From Methylomusa anaerophila (GTDB lineage Bacteria > Bacillota > Negativicutes > Sporomusales > Sporomusaceae), in assembly GCF_003966895.1 (NCBI RefSeq), contig NZ_AP018449.1, forward strand, positions 1,722,501 through 1,786,500: DNA of 64,000 nt, in the 5' to 3' direction. The notes beneath the pieces are model-generated. The model saw nothing but the letters and a program-made list of their open reading frames with translations, was not told where the DNA came from and did not search any database. How positions within the stretch are numbered: the stretch's first letter is position 1; every line of letters begins with the position of its first letter. Of the stretch, positions 29,192-43,993 are shown one piece after another. Both the position numbers and the translations under genes were made by a program.

Positions 29192-30461
29192 TTGATATTT
29201 AAACAAGAGTGCTAGCTTATAATCCCGCTTTATGTTACGCTAAAAGAAAACGGCGGTGAAACTATGGCTAGACCTAAAAAATATATTGTTATCCTGACGG
29301 ATTCTGAATTAAAGGAGTTACAATCACTCCTTCGAAAGAAAAATACCTCTCATACTATTCGCTCTAGATGTCAAATTCTCATTGATCTGGATGAAGCTCA
29401 TGGCAAAGTTCTGACCCATGAACAGTGTGCAAAATCCAATGGTGTCTGTATCGCAACCGTTCATAATACACTAAAAACATATGCTTCCGGTGGCATCCCT
29501 GCTATTGTGAAGTTGAAGAGAAATGTAAATTCCGATCAGGCCAGACGCCTTGTAGACGGACGCGCAGAAGCAAAAATCATTGAACTTGCCTGTGGGCCTG
29601 CACCGGACGGACATGTGCGCTGGACTCTCCGTCTGCTCGAAGAAAAATCACGAGTTGTGCTTGATACACCTGTAAGCCGGGAAGCCATCCGTCGCACTTT
29701 AAAAAAACGAACTTCAGCCTCACCTCAATGAGTACTGGTGTATCCCACCAAAAGAAAACGCCGAATTCGTAGCCTGCATGGAAGACATTCTAGAGGTATA
29801 TGAAACACCCTATAATCCAATGCGTCCCGTTGTCTGCATGGATGAAAAACCTTACCAGCTTCTGGGAGATGAACGAAAACCGCTGCCAATGCGTCCCGGT
29901 GCTTCTCAAAAGATAGATTCGGAATACGTAAGGGAAGGAACCTGCAGTATATTTGTCTTCACGGAACCTCTTAGTGGTACAAGACATGTCAGTGTACGCG
30001 AACGGCGTACTGCTGCAGACTGGGCGGAAGAAATCAAATATCTTGTGGATGTCATGTATCCCGATATGGATAAAATCGTTCTGGTAATGGACAACCTGAA
30101 CACACATAGGCCAGCGTCCCTTTATAAAGTCTTTGCGCCGCAAGAAGCTCGAAGAATTATAAAACGCTTAGAACTGCATTACACACCCAAACATGGAAGC
30201 TGGCTTAACATAGCAGAAATTGAGCTGAATGTTATGACCAGACAGTGCCTTTCCCGGAGGATTGATACTATATCCCGTTTAAAGGAAGAGTTGCAGTGCT
30301 GGAAAAATGAACGCAACCAGAAAGTATCGAGAGTTAACTGGCATTTTAGACTGGATAATGCCAGAATAAAACTTATATCTTTGTATCCCAAATTTGAGAT
30401 CCAACAACAGTAATATTACGTTACCCCTCGTTGATGTTTACTATAAATATCAACGTGTCGA
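29192..30461 (+). mobile_element. IS630-family insertion sequence with TA target duplication
   Basis: 1270 bp flanked by TA (29190-29191 and 30462-30463), the usual IS630/Tc1 target. Limits are supported independently by restoration of the host gene frame. Ends share 'ttgatattta' in inverted orientation, immediately at the left end but offset by 8 bp at the right end. Confidence 0.8.
29264..30413 (+). pseudogene. IS630-family transposase, two frames joined at an A7 run
   Basis: The first frame (29264-29731) encodes the HTH part ('MARPKKYIVILTDSEL'). The second (open from about 29710, to 30413) encodes the DDE domain with Asp in 'VVCMDEKPYQLL', Asp in 'VLVMDNLNTH' and Glu in 'LNIAEIELNVM'. 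The full family protein would read '...IRRTLKKNELQPHLNEYW'. That needs one A fewer in the seven-A run at 29701-29707, or a frameshift there. It is either inactivated or expressed by programmed slippage, which IS630 relatives are known to use. Confidence 0.8.
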
Positions 30462-34679: not shown

Positions 34680-34730
34680 GTATGTCGAAGGAACTGTCCC
34701 AATTACATATTCCTTCGACATACTTTTTTT
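34680..34730 (+). terminator. Terminator
   Basis: Perfect 13-bp arms 'gtatgtcgaagga' (34680-34692) and 'tccttcgacatac' (34710-34722), then seven T. The loop contains 'actgtccc', as in the palindromic repeat family. From 34731 to 34917 the DNA is AT-rich with no further feature apart from 'aaaaggaga' before the next gene. Confidence 0.85.
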
Positions 34731-34917
34731 GTCTGAATTGTAAATTCAATGTAATATTTTTGCAGGAAATTAATTTAACATATAGAATATCTTAAATATG
34801 TTGCCAAATTTAAAATTATAAGGAGGTGAAAATAGAATAAAGAGGGGGTGGTAACTTAAGACAAAGACTACTGTCAAAGAAAGCACTTCCAAAATAAGAA
34901 AAAGGAGATTATTAGCT

Positions 34918-36096
34918 ATGAAAAAAAAAGATTTGTTTAAAACAACAATAACATGTTTAATCATGTTATTGGCTTTGACTCTAATTAGCATAGATATTCA
35001 AACATACGCACAAGGTACAACTGAAACTAAGGAAACAAAGGTTATAGAAGAACCAATAACCAAGGAACCTACGGATAATAAGGATACTAAAGAAACTAAG
35101 GATAATAAGGAAACCAAGAATACTAAGGAAACCAAAACTGAACCAGAAGCGGTAACCAAGGAACCTAAGAGTGTACAAGAGCCGGGAACTAAAGGCGACG
35201 AGAGCATACAAGAGCCGGGAACTAAAGGCGGCGAGAATGTACAAGAACCGGGAATGAAATTACAACCGGTTACTGTAAAAGAATTAGGGATAACTGATGA
35301 AGACGCCAAAAATCAAATTATCAAACGGCATGGCGAGGACTTGGCAAAACATATGCAACTTCGCGTAAAAGGACCATTATCATCTGAGCCGCAGCAAAAG
35401 AATAGTAAATTCAGCGAAATACGATTTTCAAAACCAGCTACCGATAAAAAAGCCAATAACTTTTCTGGTTACATATCAGACATTCCAAAAGGAACTTTAT
35501 TGGGAGCCGAGGGACGATTCAATGTACCCCAGGTGACAAATGACGGTCTGCTTTCTGCTTGGGTGGGTGTTGCGGATGCTACTCCTGATCAGCCTAAAGT
35601 AGTACAAGCCGGCGTAGAGTTTAGTTCATATCGCCAAGCTTGGGTTGAATTTTTCCCTGGTGAACCACTTTGGGTGCCTGCCGAATTCTCTATTAACCCG
35701 GGAGATTCTATATATATTGATGTTGCACAGGATACGATGTCTGGCGCCTGGACCATTTTAATAATCAACGAAACAACTAAAAAGTGGTATTGCGATGGGT
35801 TTAGTACAGATGTAAAATTTGACGCAAAACAGGCATGTTGGATTTTAGAAGTTCCCACGGCAAAAGATCAAACCGGTCAATTTATCAGCCCGCCTCCTAC
35901 TCACGCTGATATTACGCACTTCACAAAAGCAGGCTGGGAAAAAGGGCAGTCCTATACTGTTTCCAGAATCAATGACGATAGTATTGAGGCGCTTTATAGA
36001 TTCTCCCTCACTGACAAGCATGATTCAATACTGTTCAGTCCTAGTAATATCAACCCTGATGGAATGAGTTTTGACGTAAATACCAGCATTAAATAA
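34918..36096 (+). CDS. Secreted G1 (eqolisin)-like glutamic peptidase with repeat linker
   Basis: A 392-residue exported protein: signal peptide (about 1-32, 'LIMLLALTLISIDIQTYAQG'), a Lys/Thr/Glu-rich low-complexity linker (35-105) ending in three 'QEPGTKG(D/G)E'-type repeats, then a 220-residue domain matching peptidase family G1. The two catalytic signatures are visible: Gln in 'VVQAGVEF' and Glu in 'CWILEVPT'. 'LSAWVGV' and 'AWVEFFPGEP' are other family strands. G1 enzymes are acid glutamic peptidases, best known from fungi. ATG 34918 has 'aaaaaggaga' upstream, and a terminator follows. Activity is inferred from the motifs only. Confidence 0.75.
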   Translation: MKKKDLFKTTITCLIMLLALTLISIDIQTYAQGTTETKETKVIEEPITKEPTDNKDTKETKDNKETKNTKETKTEPEAVTKEPKSVQEPGTKGDESIQEPGTKGGENVQEPGMKLQPVTVKELGITDEDAKNQIIKRHGEDLAKHMQLRVKGPLSSEPQQKNSKFSEIRFSKPATDKKANNFSGYISDIPKGTLLGAEGRFNVPQVTNDGLLSAWVGVADATPDQPKVVQAGVEFSSYRQAWVEFFPGEPLWVPAEFSINPGDSIYIDVAQDTMSGAWTILIINETTKKWYCDGFSTDVKFDAKQACWILEVPTAKDQTGQFISPPPTHADITHFTKAGWEKGQSYTVSRINDDSIEALYRFSLTDKHDSILFSPSNINPDGMSFDVNTSIK

Positions 36097-36271: not shown

Positions 36272-38152
36272 TCATTCCGTTTTAGCATTAAAAGTAATTA
36301 TAAAGCGGGTTCCCTTATCTTTCTTGGATTCTACCTCTATAATTCCGTTGTGGCGCCGCACAATCCCGGCACAAACAGAAAGCCCTAGCCCAGTGCCGTT
36401 TTCCTTGGTAGTGAAGAACGGGTCAAATATTTTTTCCCGATTTTCCTTACAAATTCCGCAACCGCAGTCATCAACACATAAGGAAACCGTATTGCCTTCA
36501 ACAATAGTTTCAATAGTTAGCGTTCCGTGTTGACTCATAGCTTCAATTCCGTTTCTTGTAAGATTTAATAGCAACTGTTTAATTTCTTTTTCATTCAATA
36601 AGAGGTGAGGCAACTCTTCGGCTAGATTTATTTTCAATTCAATACCTTGCTCCATTGCGTCAGTGGATATAAGGGGAATAATTCCTTTGATTATGGCATT
36701 TAAGTCTTGTTCTTTATACTCTACCAGCTTATTTCTCGCCAAAGAAAGGAAGTTAGTAATAATCTGCTCAATTCGTTCTAATTCGCCTAAAACAATACAG
36801 AACTGTTCTACCATATCGTCTGGAACTTTTTTATTCAGGAATTGCAAATAACCTTTTATTACCGTCATAGGGTTTCTAATCTCATGCGCTACCCCAGCCG
36901 CCATTTCGGCTACTAAATTTAGACGGTCAAGTTTTACCATGTCTTCCTTAAGTTTTTCATATTCGGTGATATCATGGATTATTGTCATAGCGCCAATAAT
37001 CGTATTTTTGTAATTACGAAGTGGAATTGCGTTAATTAAATAACAATTTCCATATGCGTTTTTTAAATAACAATCTAATGATTCTACTCCGTTTAGCGCT
37101 TGCTGACAGGGTGAGTTTTCCCAATTAAATCCTAGTGTTTCTAAAAGATATTGTCCTGACCTGCCTAGGAATTCTTCTTCTTTAAAATTTGATATTCGTT
37201 CCCAATAGGCTTTATTTACTGCGATAACGTTACCTTTGTTATCATATAGAACAATTCCCAAAGGGCATAATTCAATCAACTGGTTTAGCTTTTTATTTTC
37301 AGTTAAATATTGGTTTAAGAGTTCGTGCTGTTTTTTCTGGTTTTCTTCTCTAAATTTTTCATGCTCAGTTATATTGCTATTTATTCCAATAGCCCCAACA
37401 ATAGCGCCTGTTGCTTGCTCCCTTACGGGTAACACGCTCATTAGGTATTTTTTTTCTGATGCAGTTAAAAATTCTTGACTGGTTTCAATCCCGTTCAACG
37501 CTTTAGTAATCGCAGATTTTTCGTGGTCAATCCCTAAATATTCATTGATGAGTTTATATTGTTTACCAATAAGGTCAACCCGGTTAGACGAAATATCTTC
37601 TGTAAATGCCTTATTTACCGAAACTATTTTTCCGTGGTTATCAACAATATAGATAGCCATCGGACATAAATCGAGTAACTGGCTGAATTTTGCGACTTGA
37701 TTAGAAAGGGTTAGTTCTGATAATTTTCTTTCTGTAATATCCGTAACATTACACATAACTGCTTCAATTTCGCCGCTAGATGTGACGATCGGACTTATCA
37801 AACATTCAAAATAGTCATATTGCCCTTGTATATTAAGAATGTCTATGCAATTTTCATAGTCAGCAGTTCCAGTATTAAATACCTGTATTATTTTTTCATC
37901 CAGCCGCTCAAATGCTTCAGAGGGCAAGTTAATAAATTTTTTCCAATCTCTACCTATCATATCAGCCGGTTTTAAACCAAAATATCTTGCGCCCATTTCA
38001 CTTATATAAAAATATTTGAGGTCTTTATTCATAATACTGACAAAGTCAAACTTAAATTTAAATTGCGGCTGAAATTTTAGTCTGTTAGCTAATACCTTTT
38101 CCAATTGTTGGTCAGTCGCAGCTAAACTTTTGATAAGTTCCTGTAATGGCAT
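36272..38152 (-). CDS. Three-PAS sensor histidine kinase
   Basis: A 626-residue soluble kinase: three PAS domains (about 40-150, 160-275, 290-395; 'CPMAIYIVDNHGKIVSVNKA' and 'CPLGIVLYDNKGNVIAVNKA' start the second and third), then HisKA 'GVAHEIRNPMTVIKGYLQF' with the phospho-accepting His, and the ATPase domain ('NLTRNGIEAM', 'DDCGCGI', 'GLGLSVC'). Its plan resembles sporulation-type orphan kinases such as KinA/KinE. No response regulator is adjacent. Start ATG 38152 ('MPLQELIKS') follows 'ggaggttttt'. A membrane segment is not seen. Confidence 0.88.
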   Translation of the reverse strand: MPLQELIKSLAATDQQLEKVLANRLKFQPQFKFKFDFVSIMNKDLKYFYISEMGARYFGLKPADMIGRDWKKFINLPSEAFERLDEKIIQVFNTGTADYENCIDILNIQGQYDYFECLISPIVTSSGEIEAVMCNVTDITERKLSELTLSNQVAKFSQLLDLCPMAIYIVDNHGKIVSVNKAFTEDISSNRVDLIGKQYKLINEYLGIDHEKSAITKALNGIETSQEFLTASEKKYLMSVLPVREQATGAIVGAIGINSNITEHEKFREENQKKQHELLNQYLTENKKLNQLIELCPLGIVLYDNKGNVIAVNKAYWERISNFKEEEFLGRSGQYLLETLGFNWENSPCQQALNGVESLDCYLKNAYGNCYLINAIPLRNYKNTIIGAMTIIHDITEYEKLKEDMVKLDRLNLVAEMAAGVAHEIRNPMTVIKGYLQFLNKKVPDDMVEQFCIVLGELERIEQIITNFLSLARNKLVEYKEQDLNAIIKGIIPLISTDAMEQGIELKINLAEELPHLLLNEKEIKQLLLNLTRNGIEAMSQHGTLTIETIVEGNTVSLCVDDCGCGICKENREKIFDPFFTTKENGTGLGLSVCAGIVRRHNGIIEVESKKDKGTRFIITFNAKTE

Positions 38153-38527
38153 AAAAACCTCCAAAAATATCATGATAGCTTAAAATTATACATTCAATAA
38201 GGAAATTCCTCCAGCGGTAGTATTTTTTTGTTAAAAATGTAAATTATTAATAAATTCGACAAAATTTTACTTTGATACTTATTCAAAAATATAACAGCAA
38301 CATCATGATATTAATGTGTAGCTTATTCATAATAGCAGAAAATGCATTTGAGGGAAAGTTTTTCTCTTCCCACAAATGCATTTTTAATAATTACCTAATT
38401 ACCTAATTACCTAATAATTTTTTATCTTGATAATGAGTCAAGACTCCCGCCCCTACAGGCGGCGTTAATTCAGGTGGAGTAGACTCTCCACCTGAATCCC
38501 CGATGTTTCAGCGATGCTGAAACGAGT
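38153..38527. other. Intergenic region with two terminators and short repeats
   Basis: 375 bp. A hairpin 'aaaatgcatttg' / 'caaatgcattttt' with inner 'gggaaag' stem (38339-38384) is bidirectional. 'attaccta' is repeated three times in tandem (38391-38414). A second hairpin 'ttcaggtggag' / 'ctccacctgaa' (38469-38496) belongs to the stop-codon repeat copy d and terminates the large minus-strand gene. Confidence 0.7.
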
Positions 38528-38532
38528 TCACT
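38440..38532 (-). repeat. Stop-codon repeat, copy d, with terminator hairpin
   Basis: On the minus strand 'cagtgaactcgtttcagc' supplies the TGA stop of the 1267-residue gene and is followed by a G+C-rich hairpin (38469-38496) and 'gcgggagtctt'. The arrangement parallels copy c after kdpC (hairpin with 'actct' loop, then 'gtggaagtctt'). Confidence 0.55.
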
Positions 38533-41500
38533 GTTTTATATAAGAGGTAAGACATGTTGGTGTTGTTTTTGTTTGAAATTCGATAATCTGTATACTTTCA
38601 TCTTTTTCCGGATTCGCACAATTACTTAAAGTAGCAGCGATTTCTTTGGATTTATAAAAATCAATATATTTTTGCTGCCGCTTTTGCAACTTGACTTTAA
38701 TTATACCTTTGTAAATCAGATCAATAACACAATCTTTGTAAGCAAGCGCTGCTAATACCGGTTCTTCTTCCACTATCATTTCCAAAACTTTATATACATC
38801 TTCATCTATTAAATATTCACTGTAAAATTGATTTTTCGAATACAAAAAAAACTTTTTATTATTACTATTAAAAGAATAATCAATTTTTATATTTATGTCA
38901 TCCGATAGCTGTAGGTATAATTTATCCCATTCCACTGAATTCAGCCTGTCAATTTGTTCAAAATATTCTTTTACCTTTTTATTAATTGCTTGCGTAGGGT
39001 TATAAATGGATTTTGAATAAAAACTGTTTCCCTCTTTTTTTATTAGAATGTAGCCAAAGTTTACCGACGATATACCGGAAGAGTTAAAATTTTGTATCCA
39101 CATATCCAATTCATCATTGTATTGCTCAAATGTCTGCTTAAAAGGATAGTGGCAATGTGGTACGGAAAACAAAATATCATTTCTGTCGGCAGTAGTCAGT
39201 ATTAACTTATCCGCCTTTGCCGTTCCCCACCACTTGTTCAATTTTTCTTCATATTGGTGAACATTCACTAAATCGGAAACAATAAAAAGACTTCCTGTAT
39301 TGTTAAGGTGTAAATCAGCATTTGTGATAATGGCTTCTAATATTTTTTCGCCGTTATTGCCGCCGTCTCTAAAGTTCAAATTACTGTTCGGACTTGGAAC
39401 AAAAGGCGGATTTGCTAAAATAGTATCAAATTTTTCATTGCCAATAGGGGTGTAAAGATTACCCTCAACAAACCTTACATTGGATACTCCGTTTAGCTGC
39501 GCATTAAATCTCGCAAAACGTATAGCCCGCGGATTGATGTCGATCCCAATGACTTTCTTTCCATAGCAGCTGGCTGTAATTGCCTGGATGCCGGAACCTG
39601 TACATAAATCAAGTATATTTTCGGACAGATACTTCGGTACAGTATGTACTAAACCTAAACTGTCCATTCCAATATACATAACCGGACTTTCCTCAATATG
39701 GTCTTCTTCTTCATAGATCATATAGCGATGGTCGGTAGCTATAAAAAACTCATGAATACAGTATATATCGACTCTGGAAGCAAATAATTCTTCCCTTGGA
39801 ATAATAATTCCTATGGTGCATAGGGTCTGGAAACAATAATCCCCAAGTATATCTATCATTCTTTCTTTGCTTAGAGAATGGCGCAACAAAAATAATCTTA
39901 TCAGGTCTTCCAGCTTTCCTGCACCAAGTTTATGATTGCTGTAGTAATGAATATAAGTTGGCTCGATACTTTGCAGGGTTTCAATCGCAAGCAATTTACA
40001 GATATTGCTTTCTGAATAGCCATGTATTGTAAGGCTGTCACTAAACTGCTTAAGGGTATTATATAAGCTGAAAGCCTCATTGCCAAACTGTCCCAGTGTA
40101 ATATCCGTAGGGACATTGATACTGTCGCTTTTTCTTCTAAATGTTTTATCGGTTAAATTGTATCTCTTAAGCTGTTTTGCTGCCCATTCCAATTTTTCCC
40201 GGAATACTTTTTCCGATAAATTTAACTCCAGCCTTAATTCCTCAAGCTCATCGTCTGTCCCTTTATAGCAGAGCATTAGCAGCCGCACTTCTTCATAAGT
40301 AAAAAATTTTGCAGGAATTAACCCGGATAAATCCTTTATTTCCGACATTCCCAGCGGATCCAGCAAAAGTAGCAGATCTTTTTCTAATTGGGCTGAAAAA
40401 TGCTTGCCAAGGGGACTTTTAGCGAAAAAAACAGATGTTTCTTTATAAATTGCTCCTTGGGAAGAAATTCTTTCCAATTCATTTCTTGTCCACATTAAAT
40501 TTTCCGTTTTGCCAAAGAAAATAGCTTCATCCAGCTGGTTCATCAAATGAGTAACATCTATTCTTTCTTCCGTTAAACCATGAGGATAATCCGATTCCTG
40601 CAATTGTGCCAGATGCTCTTCATAGCTTAATACAAGTGAATTTTTCTTTCTTATCCAATAGCCTTCAAGGCTAAGAAAATCTATATCGGTTGAAAGGAAT
40701 GTGCTTATGGCCTCTTCCGGCGTTTCAATAATTGGTTGTCCGGCTATATTGAAGCTCGTATTTAAAATAACCGGACAACCGCCTCTTTCTTTAACCATTT
40801 TATGGCACAAATCATAAAAGAAGGTGTTTTCTTTCGTAACTGTCTGAACTCTACCCGTACCATCATGGTGAGTAACAGAAGGAATTTGATCATGGTATTC
40901 TTTTTTGATATTGGAAACTAACAGCATAAAGGGAGATGCTACAGCCTGTTCAAATATTGTAGATATCTCTTCCCAAGGTATTACCGGGGCAAAGGGCCTA
41001 AACGCTTCTCTGAATTTTACTCTATAATTCAATATGTCTTTCATTTTTTTAAAAGTTGGATCGGCAATAATTGATCTATGCCCTAAAGCTCTGGGGCCAA
41101 ATTCCGAACCGCCTTCAAACCTGGCAATGATATTCCCTTTTGACATCTGAACCGCACAAGTTGAAACCATTTCGGGATAAGAAAGCTTTTCCACAGTGAT
41201 TTCATTTGCGAACTTATGAATAGCAGCTTCTATTTCAGTTTCCGTATAATCTCTGCCAAGGGTTGCTTTCTCCAGTTTGCAGCGAACGTTACCCTTCTCA
41301 ATGTTATGATAGGCCCAAAAGGCATTGCCTACAGCAATGCCTGCATCCCCGGCTGCCGGGAAAACAAAGATATCTTCCAAATTCAGTTCTGTTAAAAGCG
41401 TATAGTTGGCAACTGAATTTAAAGCTACTCCGCCCGCGCAGCAAAGTTTTCGGCAATTCGTTTGCTTAATTGCAAGTTCAACAATGTGTAACAGTGCCTC

Positions 41501-42331
41501 TTCCAATTCTGATTGAATTTTATATGCCAAATCTACAATATAAGGTCTAAGGTAGGCTTTCCCTTTTCCATCGTCATATAACTTTTTCAGTGCTTCTACT
41601 TCCAGAAACAAGTCATAGGCGGAAATATCTATACTGTAACTGTCCGGTTTGGCCTGTAACCACTCATGCCATTTATCGCAATAAGTTCCATAAGGGGCCA
41701 GTCCCATGAGCTTTCCGGCTTCCGGTATTGCCAGGTTTTTTCCAATGGCGGTTGAAAAACCAGCTAATTTTGTAATAAATTCATAGACAAACCCAAGGGT
41801 GGAAAGCGGCGCCAAATATGCTTTGACTTTTTCACTATGTAACAATTTTATCTCAGTTCCCTTGGCAATATACAAGCTGTATGATTCTGTAAGCCTCTCT
41901 CTGTCTGTAGTACCTGAAGCATCGGCAACAAGGACAATTGCTTCGTCAAAACCGGATGGCCAATACGCTGTATAAGCATGAGACAAATGATGACTTGGAA
42001 TCCCATAGATTTTAGCCGATACTTCTTTGGGAAAGGCTCTTTGCAATATATCTATCGAATAGTCTATTCCCGGCATATTGGCGGTAATAGTGGAAACCTC
42101 ATTCATTCCAATATCGCATTTTCGCAGACAATATTGAATCGCTTCATGAGGAATCTGAATATTTCTACAATCTCCCAATGATTGGTGCAAAAAACCTATA
42201 CTATTTTTTGTCCGATCCAATCGTTCTTGCTGGATTGCTGTTTCGATATTTCCATTTTTTACAATTGCTGCTGAACGATCATGCCCAAGGTTAATTCCTA
42301 AATGATATATTGATCCATCCGAAGTCGCCAT
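38528..42331 (-). CDS. Carbamoyltransferase (NodU/TobZ type) fused to a class I methyltransferase
   Basis: A 1267-residue multidomain protein. Residues about 8-370 form the Kae1-like carbamoyl-adenylate domain ('LGINLGHDRSAAIV', metal ligands in 'HHLSHAYTAYW', 'AAGDAGIAVGNAFW'). Residues about 380-570 form the C-terminal O-carbamoyltransferase domain ('FEGGSEFGPRALGHRSIIAD', 'VILNTSFNIAGQPI'). A roughly 300-residue helical linker follows, then an SAM methyltransferase ('ILDLCTGSGIQAITAS', 'VIGIDINPRAI', 'ILANPPFVPSP') at about 900-1060 and a 200-residue tail. The NPPF motif is typical of N-methyltransferases of the HemK/PrmC type. ATG 42331 follows 'gggaggaa'. It is monocistronic. The substrate may be a natural product or cell-surface sugar, which is inference. 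Confidence 0.85.
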   Translation of the reverse strand: MATSDGSIYHLGINLGHDRSAAIVKNGNIETAIQQERLDRTKNSIGFLHQSLGDCRNIQIPHEAIQYCLRKCDIGMNEVSTITANMPGIDYSIDILQRAFPKEVSAKIYGIPSHHLSHAYTAYWPSGFDEAIVLVADASGTTDRERLTESYSLYIAKGTEIKLLHSEKVKAYLAPLSTLGFVYEFITKLAGFSTAIGKNLAIPEAGKLMGLAPYGTYCDKWHEWLQAKPDSYSIDISAYDLFLEVEALKKLYDDGKGKAYLRPYIVDLAYKIQSELEEALLHIVELAIKQTNCRKLCCAGGVALNSVANYTLLTELNLEDIFVFPAAGDAGIAVGNAFWAYHNIEKGNVRCKLEKATLGRDYTETEIEAAIHKFANEITVEKLSYPEMVSTCAVQMSKGNIIARFEGGSEFGPRALGHRSIIADPTFKKMKDILNYRVKFREAFRPFAPVIPWEEISTIFEQAVASPFMLLVSNIKKEYHDQIPSVTHHDGTGRVQTVTKENTFFYDLCHKMVKERGGCPVILNTSFNIAGQPIIETPEEAISTFLSTDIDFLSLEGYWIRKKNSLVLSYEEHLAQLQESDYPHGLTEERIDVTHLMNQLDEAIFFGKTENLMWTRNELERISSQGAIYKETSVFFAKSPLGKHFSAQLEKDLLLLLDPLGMSEIKDLSGLIPAKFFTYEEVRLLMLCYKGTDDELEELRLELNLSEKVFREKLEWAAKQLKRYNLTDKTFRRKSDSINVPTDITLGQFGNEAFSLYNTLKQFSDSLTIHGYSESNICKLLAIETLQSIEPTYIHYYSNHKLGAGKLEDLIRLFLLRHSLSKERMIDILGDYCFQTLCTIGIIIPREELFASRVDIYCIHEFFIATDHRYMIYEEEDHIEESPVMYIGMDSLGLVHTVPKYLSENILDLCTGSGIQAITASCYGKKVIGIDINPRAIRFARFNAQLNGVSNVRFVEGNLYTPIGNEKFDTILANPPFVPSPNSNLNFRDGGNNGEKILEAIITNADLHLNNTGSLFIVSDLVNVHQYEEKLNKWWGTAKADKLILTTADRNDILFSVPHCHYPFKQTFEQYNDELDMWIQNFNSSGISSVNFGYILIKKEGNSFYSKSIYNPTQAINKKVKEYFEQIDRLNSVEWDKLYLQLSDDINIKIDYSFNSNNKKFFLYSKNQFYSEYLIDEDVYKVLEMIVEEEPVLAALAYKDCVIDLIYKGIIKVKLQKRQQKYIDFYKSKEIAATLSNCANPEKDESIQIIEFQTKTTPTCLTSYIKQ

Positions 42332-42818
42332 AAATTATTCCTCCCGATAAATCGTTTCCCAATTGTTTATAAGACCCGCTTTTGCGGGCGATAGGCAATG
42401 AAAGCCAATAAGCAAAATAAAAATACTGTTACTGCCATAAGCTGTGCTGCAAGCTAGTTTTTATATTTATTCCTAAAAAAGGAAAAAAGTTAGTATTACA
42501 GGTTTTTATTGGAAATTATTCGTCAGATATCTTGTTTTTCCTTCAAAAAAATTGATAAAAATATTTTTTTTGCAAGTAATAAGACAAAAATGGGACAATT
42601 TTCCTAAATTATTGGTACGTTTCTACTCAATTTTGCTTCGAACATTCCTCTTGCTTCACATTCAGGTGCTCTAAAGAATGTTTTCCTTGCCTCAGAGCGG
42701 AAAACAAAAGTGGTAACCAGCAGGAGTTTATCAATATTGTGAGAATTATGAAAAGAGTATAGTTGTTTCCGCTAAACTATGTCGTTATAAATAACATTAT
42801 ACATGGGGGCGAAAAAAT
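42332..42818. other. Intergenic region between divergent genes
   Basis: 487 bp upstream of both the fusion gene (minus) and the chemoreceptor gene (plus). 'cccgcttttgcggg' forms a small stem at 42368. The rest is AT-rich without recognised RNA motif. 'catgggggcg' before ATG 42819 is the ribosome site. Confidence 0.4.
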
Positions 42819-43634: not shown

Positions 43635-43993
43635 GCTAAAAGTATTTCCATTATTGGCAATGTTTATATTTTATATATCTACATAAATTATTTTATAGCA
43701 TTGGGATGCAGCTACTTTCTGCCACAATATGGAGTTGCCCATTGTACAGAAGTAGAAACCAAATATAAGATATATTTCATTGCTGCCAAATGGTGAGAGC
43801 CGTTTGCCAGCAATGGAGGGAAGCAAAAAGAACGTCTTTCTGCTTCTTTTTGTTCTCAAATGCCATGGGGACAGTTCTCGTGACATAATTATGTCACGAG
43901 AACTGTCCCCCAGACAACATACCCCAGACAACACGGGATAAAATGATCACAATTGTTTATTAACGTTAAAGGAATTGGAAAGGTATTGATAAT
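43635..43993. other. Intergenic region carrying palindromic repeat 1
   Basis: 359 bp. 'gtttgccagcaatggaggg' and a Lys-codon-like A-rich stretch precede the palindrome at 43867. No gene is seen. Confidence 0.4.
43867..43910. repeat. Palindromic GGGGACAGTTCT repeat, copy 1 (perfect)
   Basis: An exact 44-bp palindrome with 22-bp arms and no loop ('ggggacagttctcgtgacat' starts the left arm), within 'gccat...cagacaac' borders shared by the family. The other copies have a central 'gaagtataayrttggat' loop that is missing here. Confidence 0.9.

Follow-up and report, generated by a model that had tools for sequence, protein, structure and literature searches.

The window analysed here, a stretch of 64,000 nucleotides from the Methylomusa anaerophila contig NZ_AP018449.1, contains on its minus strand a single gene (38528..42331, stop codon included) which specifies a 1267-residue protein fusing a NodU/TobZ-type carbamoyltransferase to a class I S-adenosylmethionine (SAM)-dependent methyltransferase. 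The gene starts with an ATG preceded by the ribosome-binding site (RBS) GGGAGG at 42340-42345, and frame 1 of the plus strand is full of stops; all parts of the fusion, the associated kinase gene and the promoter match described below likewise lie on the minus strand. A preliminary description of this DNA had given these coordinates exactly and was silent on the strand. The four motifs that it had named are, as it claimed, all held in one open frame, namely HHLSHAYTAYW (residues 114-124), EFGPRALGHRS (410-420), LDLCTGSG (907-914) and NPPF (974-977). The same fusion, 1269 residues long and 79-82% identical to the window version, occurs in three Pelosinus genomes, the fusion-bearing members of this genus including Pelosinus propionicus DSM 13327 and Pelosinus fermentans JBW45. 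The frame is complete and without an internal stop in all four genomes, which excludes a chance join. A further copy, in genome G089, is cut by the contig end after residues 1-184 and does not figure in the alignments. Both halves are under strong purifying selection, with nonsynonymous divergence (dN) of 0.059-0.079 against synonymous divergence (dS) of 0.57-0.93 when the window is compared with the three other complete versions; the dN/dS ratio in the catalytic regions of both halves, i.e., the two carbamoyltransferase domains and the methyltransferase core, is 0.09-0.13.

The N-terminal half is composed of a Kae1-like Carbam_trans_N domain (residues 1-345, 41297..42331) followed by a YrdC-like Carbam_trans_C domain (residues 346-565, 40637..41296). 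Both are recovered above the Pfam cut-offs, the former with 111.2 bits (cut-off 24, best stretch 111-337) and the latter with 204.8 bits (cut-off 27, best stretch 395-562). The relatives of this half with solved structures are GdmN, which is the best match (2e-62), 7xb6, the novobiocin carbamoyltransferase 9s2t and TobZ. The iron site of GdmN is ascribed (PMC9633730) to His133, His137, Glu156 and Glu333, although positions 156 and 333 are Asp in the printed chain. Counted along the alignment, these four positions correspond to H114, H118, D137 and D329 of the fusion, which are the expected metal ligands of its Kae1-like domain. The preliminary assignment to the NodU/TobZ type is therefore upheld by both domains and by the iron-site residues. 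The NodU equivalog profile NF041651 yields 122.3 bits against a cut-off of 1000, and this half is a relative, not NodU itself. What it shares with GdmN, TobZ, NovN and NodU extends over both Pfam domains, the iron-site positions and the GPRALG region, with the GdmN alignment spanning fusion residues 8-565. Beyond this the proteins differ: the solved chains have 576-702 residues and their alignment ends where the linker of the fusion starts, GdmN continues for about 110 further residues that do not align to the fusion, and none of these chains matches the methyltransferase half.

The C-terminal half is centered on a class I SAM methyltransferase core (residues 891-1100, 39032..39661), which matches the Pfam MTS profile with 68.8 bits (cut-off 23) over residues 894-1038 and retains motif I (LDLCTGSG), the acidic D931 and NPPF; the class claimed for it in the preliminary description is thus correct. 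Its best relatives of solved structure are gentamicin N-methyltransferase entries (about 8e-14), and its scores with the PrmC/HemK profiles remain below their cut-offs (TIGR03534, 77.7 vs 199.1; TIGR00536, 70.5 vs 115.5; TIGR00537, 74 vs 87 bits). A stand-alone methyltransferase encoded at locus L010 shares 32% identity with fusion residues 751-1090, and the Tsukamurella protein WP_068742139.1, a stand-alone member of the DUF7059-MTS-DUF7782 family, aligns with residues 755-1149 at 22% identity (E 1e-27 in a single comparison). As such stand-alone enzymes align from about residue 751 onwards, residues 746-890 (39662..40096), which occupy a DUF7059-like position, belong to the methyltransferase module. 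The fusion differs from the Tsukamurella protein in scoring 15.1 bits with the DUF7059 profile, below the cut-off of 27, and in having no match to the DUF7782 profile, but the homology between the two is clear even so. The C-terminal part of the module (residues 1101-1215, 38687..39031) is without a family match, and an hhalign comparison of the isolated C-terminal segment with the stand-alone relatives returned nothing. At locus L037 (7986-9464), a DUF7059-MTS-DUF7782 methyltransferase has a C-terminal domain with a weak match to PqqD (21.6 bits, cut-off 23.4), and this family may carry a peptide-binding fold.

The roughly 300-residue helical linker of the preliminary description accordingly shrinks to residues 566-745 (40097..40636), a helical segment of about 180 residues to which profile searches assigned no family, the remaining 145 residues (746-890) being part of the methyltransferase module. 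The structure prediction that it had proposed for this region, run for residues 565-748 on three sequences, gave a mean predicted local distance difference test score (pLDDT) of 48.6; it bore fruit in one block at about 679-724 (pLDDT 60-89), a three-helix unit resembling a helix-turn-helix (HTH) domain, and left the rest at low confidence. A Foldseek search with this model gave no significant match, sigma factors and HTH proteins being the best at E 0.12. The corresponding prediction for residues 565-1267, also from three sequences, reached a pLDDT of 35.8.

The protein ends with two segments of opposite character. Residues 1216-1250 (38582..38686) form a hypervariable spacer, the most variable segment of the four aligned fusions, with an amino acid identity of 0.34-0.66 over all six pairs. 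It is followed by a near-invariant tail, EFQTKTTPTCLTSYI[K/R]Q (residues 1251-1267, 38531..38581), in which 16 of the 17 positions are invariant and the sole change is between Lys and Arg. Between the window and the other versions, dN is 0.36-0.63 in the spacer as against 0.026 in the tail, these statistics coming from four sequences, three of which belong to one genus. No other 17-residue window is as conserved as the tail in residues 566-745 (0/164) or 1101-1250 (0/134). Equally conserved windows do occur in the carbamoyltransferase (137/549), residues 746-890 (8/129) and the methyltransferase core (20/194), so the constraint on the tail equals that of the more conserved catalytic stretches and does not exceed it. 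The tail offers invariant Lys, Gln, Ser, Thr, Tyr and Cys residues as plausible acceptors for modification, and the stand-alone relative at L010 ends without such a tail. Two of 60 relatives contained a DNA pattern representing the tail, in each case inside the fusion gene; a reversed control pattern gave six matches, so single matches to the tail pattern would mean little.

The phyletic spread of the fusion is narrow. Across 380 Negativicutes genomes, 10 show any match at 1e-15, and the complete fusion is present in four, to which the copy cut by a contig end is to be added; within the family of Pelosinus, 4 of 10 genomes match, including the cut copy. In a set of 398 genomes from the phylum nine match at 1e-20, the sole fusion being that of the window, and in a partly overlapping set of 398 genomes from another class eight match, with no fusion among them. 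None of 366 matching plasmid records and none of 148 matching phage records covers 80% of the query, and no relative was found on viral contigs. The scan of genome contigs recovered two of the Pelosinus loci and by design finds close relatives, such that distant fusions could escape it. A large open frame in genome G877 (1012 residues with an internal stop), considered as a second fusion, proved to be a 609-residue carbamoyltransferase reading frame and a separate radical SAM gene. The preliminary description knew of no characterized enzyme of this architecture, and our literature search, with most subscription journals outside its reach, also found no characterized carbamoyltransferase-methyltransferase fusion.

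In the window as in Pelosinus, the fusion is followed on its strand by a gene for an orphan soluble histidine kinase with a PAS-PAS-PAS-HisKA-HATPase architecture (36272..38173) and no strongly hydrophobic segment. When open reading frames (ORFs) of at least 80 residues are compared between the window and the three Pelosinus loci, the fusion and this kinase are the only orthologous pairs; the remaining matches are at 24-28% identity and among signaling proteins. In a search of 20 genomes, all of which have several related kinases, its C-terminal half is 80-83% identical in G049, G077 and G060, followed by versions at 52% in three relatives from the window's own family and at 48-50% in four fusion-less genomes of the Pelosinus family; no close kinase was found in G089, whose contig is cut. 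Third-codon-position identity between the window and Pelosinus is 0.63-0.71 for the fusion and 0.62-0.71 for the kinase, as against 0.40-0.42 for rpoB, a gene that is saturated at silent sites and reaches 0.49 even with a member of the window's own family. The differing flanks together with this low silent divergence relative to rpoB indicate that the fusion and kinase genes were exchanged horizontally after the lineages parted, and they would most simply have moved as one unit. Hence, the earlier statement that the enzyme is encoded alone rather than in a biosynthetic cluster holds for the lack of conserved biosynthetic genes and fails for the co-inherited kinase; the homologue and neighbor survey suggested with it likewise found the fusion kept as one gene in four genomes and the gene not alone.

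A perfect 44-bp palindrome (GGGGACAGTTCTCGTGACATAA/TTATGTCACGAGAACTGTCCCC) is located at 43867-43910, with a degenerate copy across the cassette at 34681-34708; it could be an element of the repetitive extragenic palindrome or miniature inverted-repeat transposable element kind linked to the mobility of the cassette. About 6 kb from the cassette, at 29264-30413, two adjoining ORFs resemble a two-frame transposase (IS630-like by eye). Between the fusion and the kinase, an 18-nt inverted repeat (94%) at 38339-38384, within sequence that Pelosinus lacks in part, is a possible terminator; a terminator scan of the window gave no excess.

Upstream of the fusion, at 42518..42542, the window has a match to AGGAWWW-N11-RNNGAAT, which we take to be the Bacillus sigmaH consensus. 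All five genomes with the fusion have a match to this pattern, lying 169-244 bp ahead of the fusion start; across the 38 loci searched it was found in seven, every one of them a fusion locus, and a sigH gene scores above cut-off in each of the four fusion-bearing genomes tested. The shared promoter match is, along with the conserved tail, a feature that the preliminary description had missed. A second sigmaH-like match (34764-34788) and two TGTCGAA boxes (34683-34720) lie upstream of a repeat-rich ORF at 34918-36096; the idea that TGTCGAA marks Spo0A boxes was dropped, four sites standing against 7.05 expected. On the minus strand at 42367-42438 there is also a 23-codon ORF with a by-eye hydrophobic N-terminus, whose start position ahead of the fusion is shared by four genomes; with no good RBS by eye and weak similarity, it was not accepted as a gene.

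NPPF methyltransferases usually methylate the nitrogen of amides and amines. With the catalytic motifs intact in both halves, the fusion conserved and both halves under purifying selection, the bifunctionality proposed in the preliminary description gains support, and we propose, with a probability of roughly 0.55, that the fusion is a tailoring enzyme that carbamoylates and then probably N-methylates one and the same acceptor, be it a small molecule or a peptide. The YrdC-like domain would convert carbamoyl phosphate and ATP to carbamoyl-AMP, and the Kae1-like domain, at its iron site, would then pass the carbamoyl group on to the acceptor, at an OH or NH2. The PrmC/HemK-like NPPF methyltransferase would in turn transfer the methyl group of SAM to this same acceptor, most likely to a nitrogen, which might be that of an amine, an amide or the newly formed carbamate or urea; the fusion would thereby hold both steps on one molecule. 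Transcription probably takes place in the transition phase and starts from a sigmaH-type promoter, and the cytoplasmic PAS histidine kinase may read the state, or the product, that makes the enzyme useful.

Pairings of the two kinds of enzyme occur in other systems. In rhizobia NodS and NodU, whose separate genes lie in the nod cluster, N-methylate and O-carbamoylate one Nod-factor sugar. In Mycetohabitans rhizoxinica a carbamoyltransferase-methyltransferase gene pair is present in four plasmid records, and in pBRH01 the two genes overlap and precede a nonribosomal peptide synthetase (NRPS) gene, the methyltransferase being one with NPPF. They differ from the fusion in being two genes upstream of an NRPS, with identities of 31% and 33% (the latter over 123 residues) to the respective halves. 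In crocagin biosynthesis, the carbamoyltransferase CgnI and the class I N-methyltransferase CgnL are reported to place carbamoyl and N-methyl groups on one molecule (PMC10070186); unlike the fusion, the two are separate proteins, from a cluster for a ribosomally synthesized peptide.

A number of observations weigh against the proposed tailoring enzyme and its regulation. The low identities of the Mycetohabitans proteins make that pair an analogy and not an orthology. The family is narrow, with four complete versions and the cut copy among the 380 Negativicutes genomes and no other in the two sets of 398 genomes. No biosynthetic gene is conserved beside the fusion, only the histidine kinase, and the non-kinase neighbors differ between the window and Pelosinus: in Pelosinus, genes that by eye resemble those for transporters of the major facilitator superfamily and EamA types are found no more than about 3 kb away, and the window has no counterparts of them there. 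The kinase gene begins 354 nt downstream of the fusion, so that co-transcription of the two is no more than a possibility. With a spacing of N11-12, the sigmaH pattern matches at three sites of the window where 0.38 would be expected, one of these sites falling inside the fusion coding sequence, and a general promoter scan of the window found no excess (25 vs 25.3).

The gene-neighborhoods of the relatives raise the possibility that the fusion acts in trans on the side chains of a ribosomally synthesized and post-translationally modified peptide (RiPP) encoded elsewhere, carbamoylating and methylating them, a reading that we deem unlikely while giving it due weight. A radical SAM gene directly follows the carbamoyltransferase gene in G877 (41% identical) and G208 (39%), and that of G208 has the FibroRumin peptide maturase as its best NCBIfam match (2.9e-58, 197.8 bits, below the cut-off of 400). 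Similarly, relatives of the methyltransferase half adjoin radical SAM genes at locus L046 and on a Klebsiella plasmid, the latter radical SAM protein matching best the YydG peptide epimerase (79.6 bits, cut-off 300). Precedents also exist in the literature: StdF, a fusion of an S8/S53 peptidase with a NodU-like protein, is reported to carbamoylate a peptide lysine (PMC13174530), and RiPP recognition elements (RREs) fused to carbamoyltransferases, PF02543 proteins, have been reported (PMC12710340). StdF resembles our protein in joining a NodU-like carbamoyltransferase to a second catalytic domain, and differs in that this partner is a peptidase rather than a methyltransferase and in its RiPP cluster with a precursor peptide. 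However, the G877 radical SAM protein scores best with heme b synthase (105.7 bits, cut-off 500), a peptide maturase coming second and also far below its cut-off. In a carbamoyltransferase tree of 21 rows, from which L033 (a long branch), L007 and L079 were left out, the fusion groups with the enzyme of Streptomyces sp. NBC_00998 (support 98/99), and the G877 and Metabacillus versions come next (93/98), with their fork unresolved. The Streptomyces gene lies in a small-molecule setting, among genes for aroF, isochorismate synthase, phenazine-type, aldehyde dehydrogenase, ATP-grasp and permease proteins, and further members of the family occur beside genes resembling those for polyketide synthases or NRPSs, as judged from size and opening sequence. 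Thus, the radical SAM neighbors make a peptide acceptor plausible, yet the nearest relative does not favor it. Moreover, the cassette has no radical SAM or precursor gene, and the fusion has no RRE or PqqD profile match, the predicted models being too poor to judge the fold. Small RBS-preceded ORFs in eight loci also failed to match the tail above the best of 100 shuffled tails, the highest score of 32, in L080, lying within the control range (mean 24.8, maximum 35).

Three of these neighborhoods deserve mention in their own right. The G208 region (L041, 2210-11948) has the appearance of a biosynthetic cluster: the carbamoyltransferase gene is accompanied by four radical SAM genes and by genes for a methyltransferase, a glycyl-tRNA synthetase alpha-like protein and, judged by eye, a DegT-like protein. 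On the Klebsiella sp. PL-2018 plasmid (L036, 7000-16671), the row consists of genes for a radical SAM protein, the methyltransferase, a product of 562 residues that matches no Pfam family, a protein annotated as a toxin-activating lysine acyltransferase, and an ABC transporter with a peptidase domain. In L046 (1824-5059), a radical SAM gene, a gene for a 264-residue protein without a Pfam match and the methyltransferase-half relative stand in a row.

A second alternative locates the substrate within the enzyme itself: the 17-residue tail, tethered by the hypervariable spacer, would be modified in the manner of the borosins, in which the core peptide is reported to be at the C-terminus of its own methyltransferase (PMC7878506). 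This is consistent with the conservation of the tail against the spacer, for which residues 566-745 and 1101-1250 offer no equal, with its acceptor residues and with its absence from the L010 protein. The same conservation would equally fit a docking, lid or localization element, is matched by many windows in the catalytic domains, and comes from a small and mostly congeneric sample. In addition, the cassette showed no gene for a protease. Borosin methyltransferases have a tetrapyrrole-methylase-like fold; the domain in the fusion is a class I MTS, with no family of that type among its Pfam matches. We consider self-modification to be quite improbable.

We hold it to be comparably doubtful that two unrelated activities, e.g., a protein or nucleic-acid methyltransferase and a metabolite carbamoyltransferase, were joined for co-expression only. 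The HemK/PrmC-like nature of the methyltransferase half and the housekeeping-like surroundings (by eye or annotation) of its L010 and Tsukamurella relatives speak for such a union; against it, every complete copy of the gene keeps the fusion intact, and the pairing of a carbamoyltransferase with a methyltransferase recurs, apparently independently, in Mycetohabitans and in crocagin biosynthesis. A long shot by comparison is a mobile two-gene transition-phase device in which the enzyme would modify its own C-terminal KTTPTCLTSYI[K/R]Q and the PAS kinase would read the modified-peptide signal or state. Finally, an artefact, be it a sequencing error or an assembly join of two genes, has no supporting point and can be dismissed: the preliminary description had named such a join as what would refute its claim, and the complete fusion is carried by four genomes with the same architecture and near-equal length (1267 and 1269 residues), free of stops and under purifying selection across the junction.

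Returning to the bifunctional tailoring enzyme, its component parts are known families; it is the cassette and the tail that make the case more than an ordinary joining of domains. Antibiotics and signals are tailored by carbamoyltransferases and methyltransferases that stand alone, and the existence of a natural, conserved fusion of the two suggests that both steps belong together on one acceptor, offering a single protein for studying or engineering such double decoration. Should the tail be the substrate, this would be an enzyme that carbamoylates itself, and we know of no such self-carbamoylating enzyme. The horizontal co-inheritance with an orphan kinase, together with the sigmaH-like match, would tie the enzyme to cell-state decisions in the spore-forming Negativicutes.

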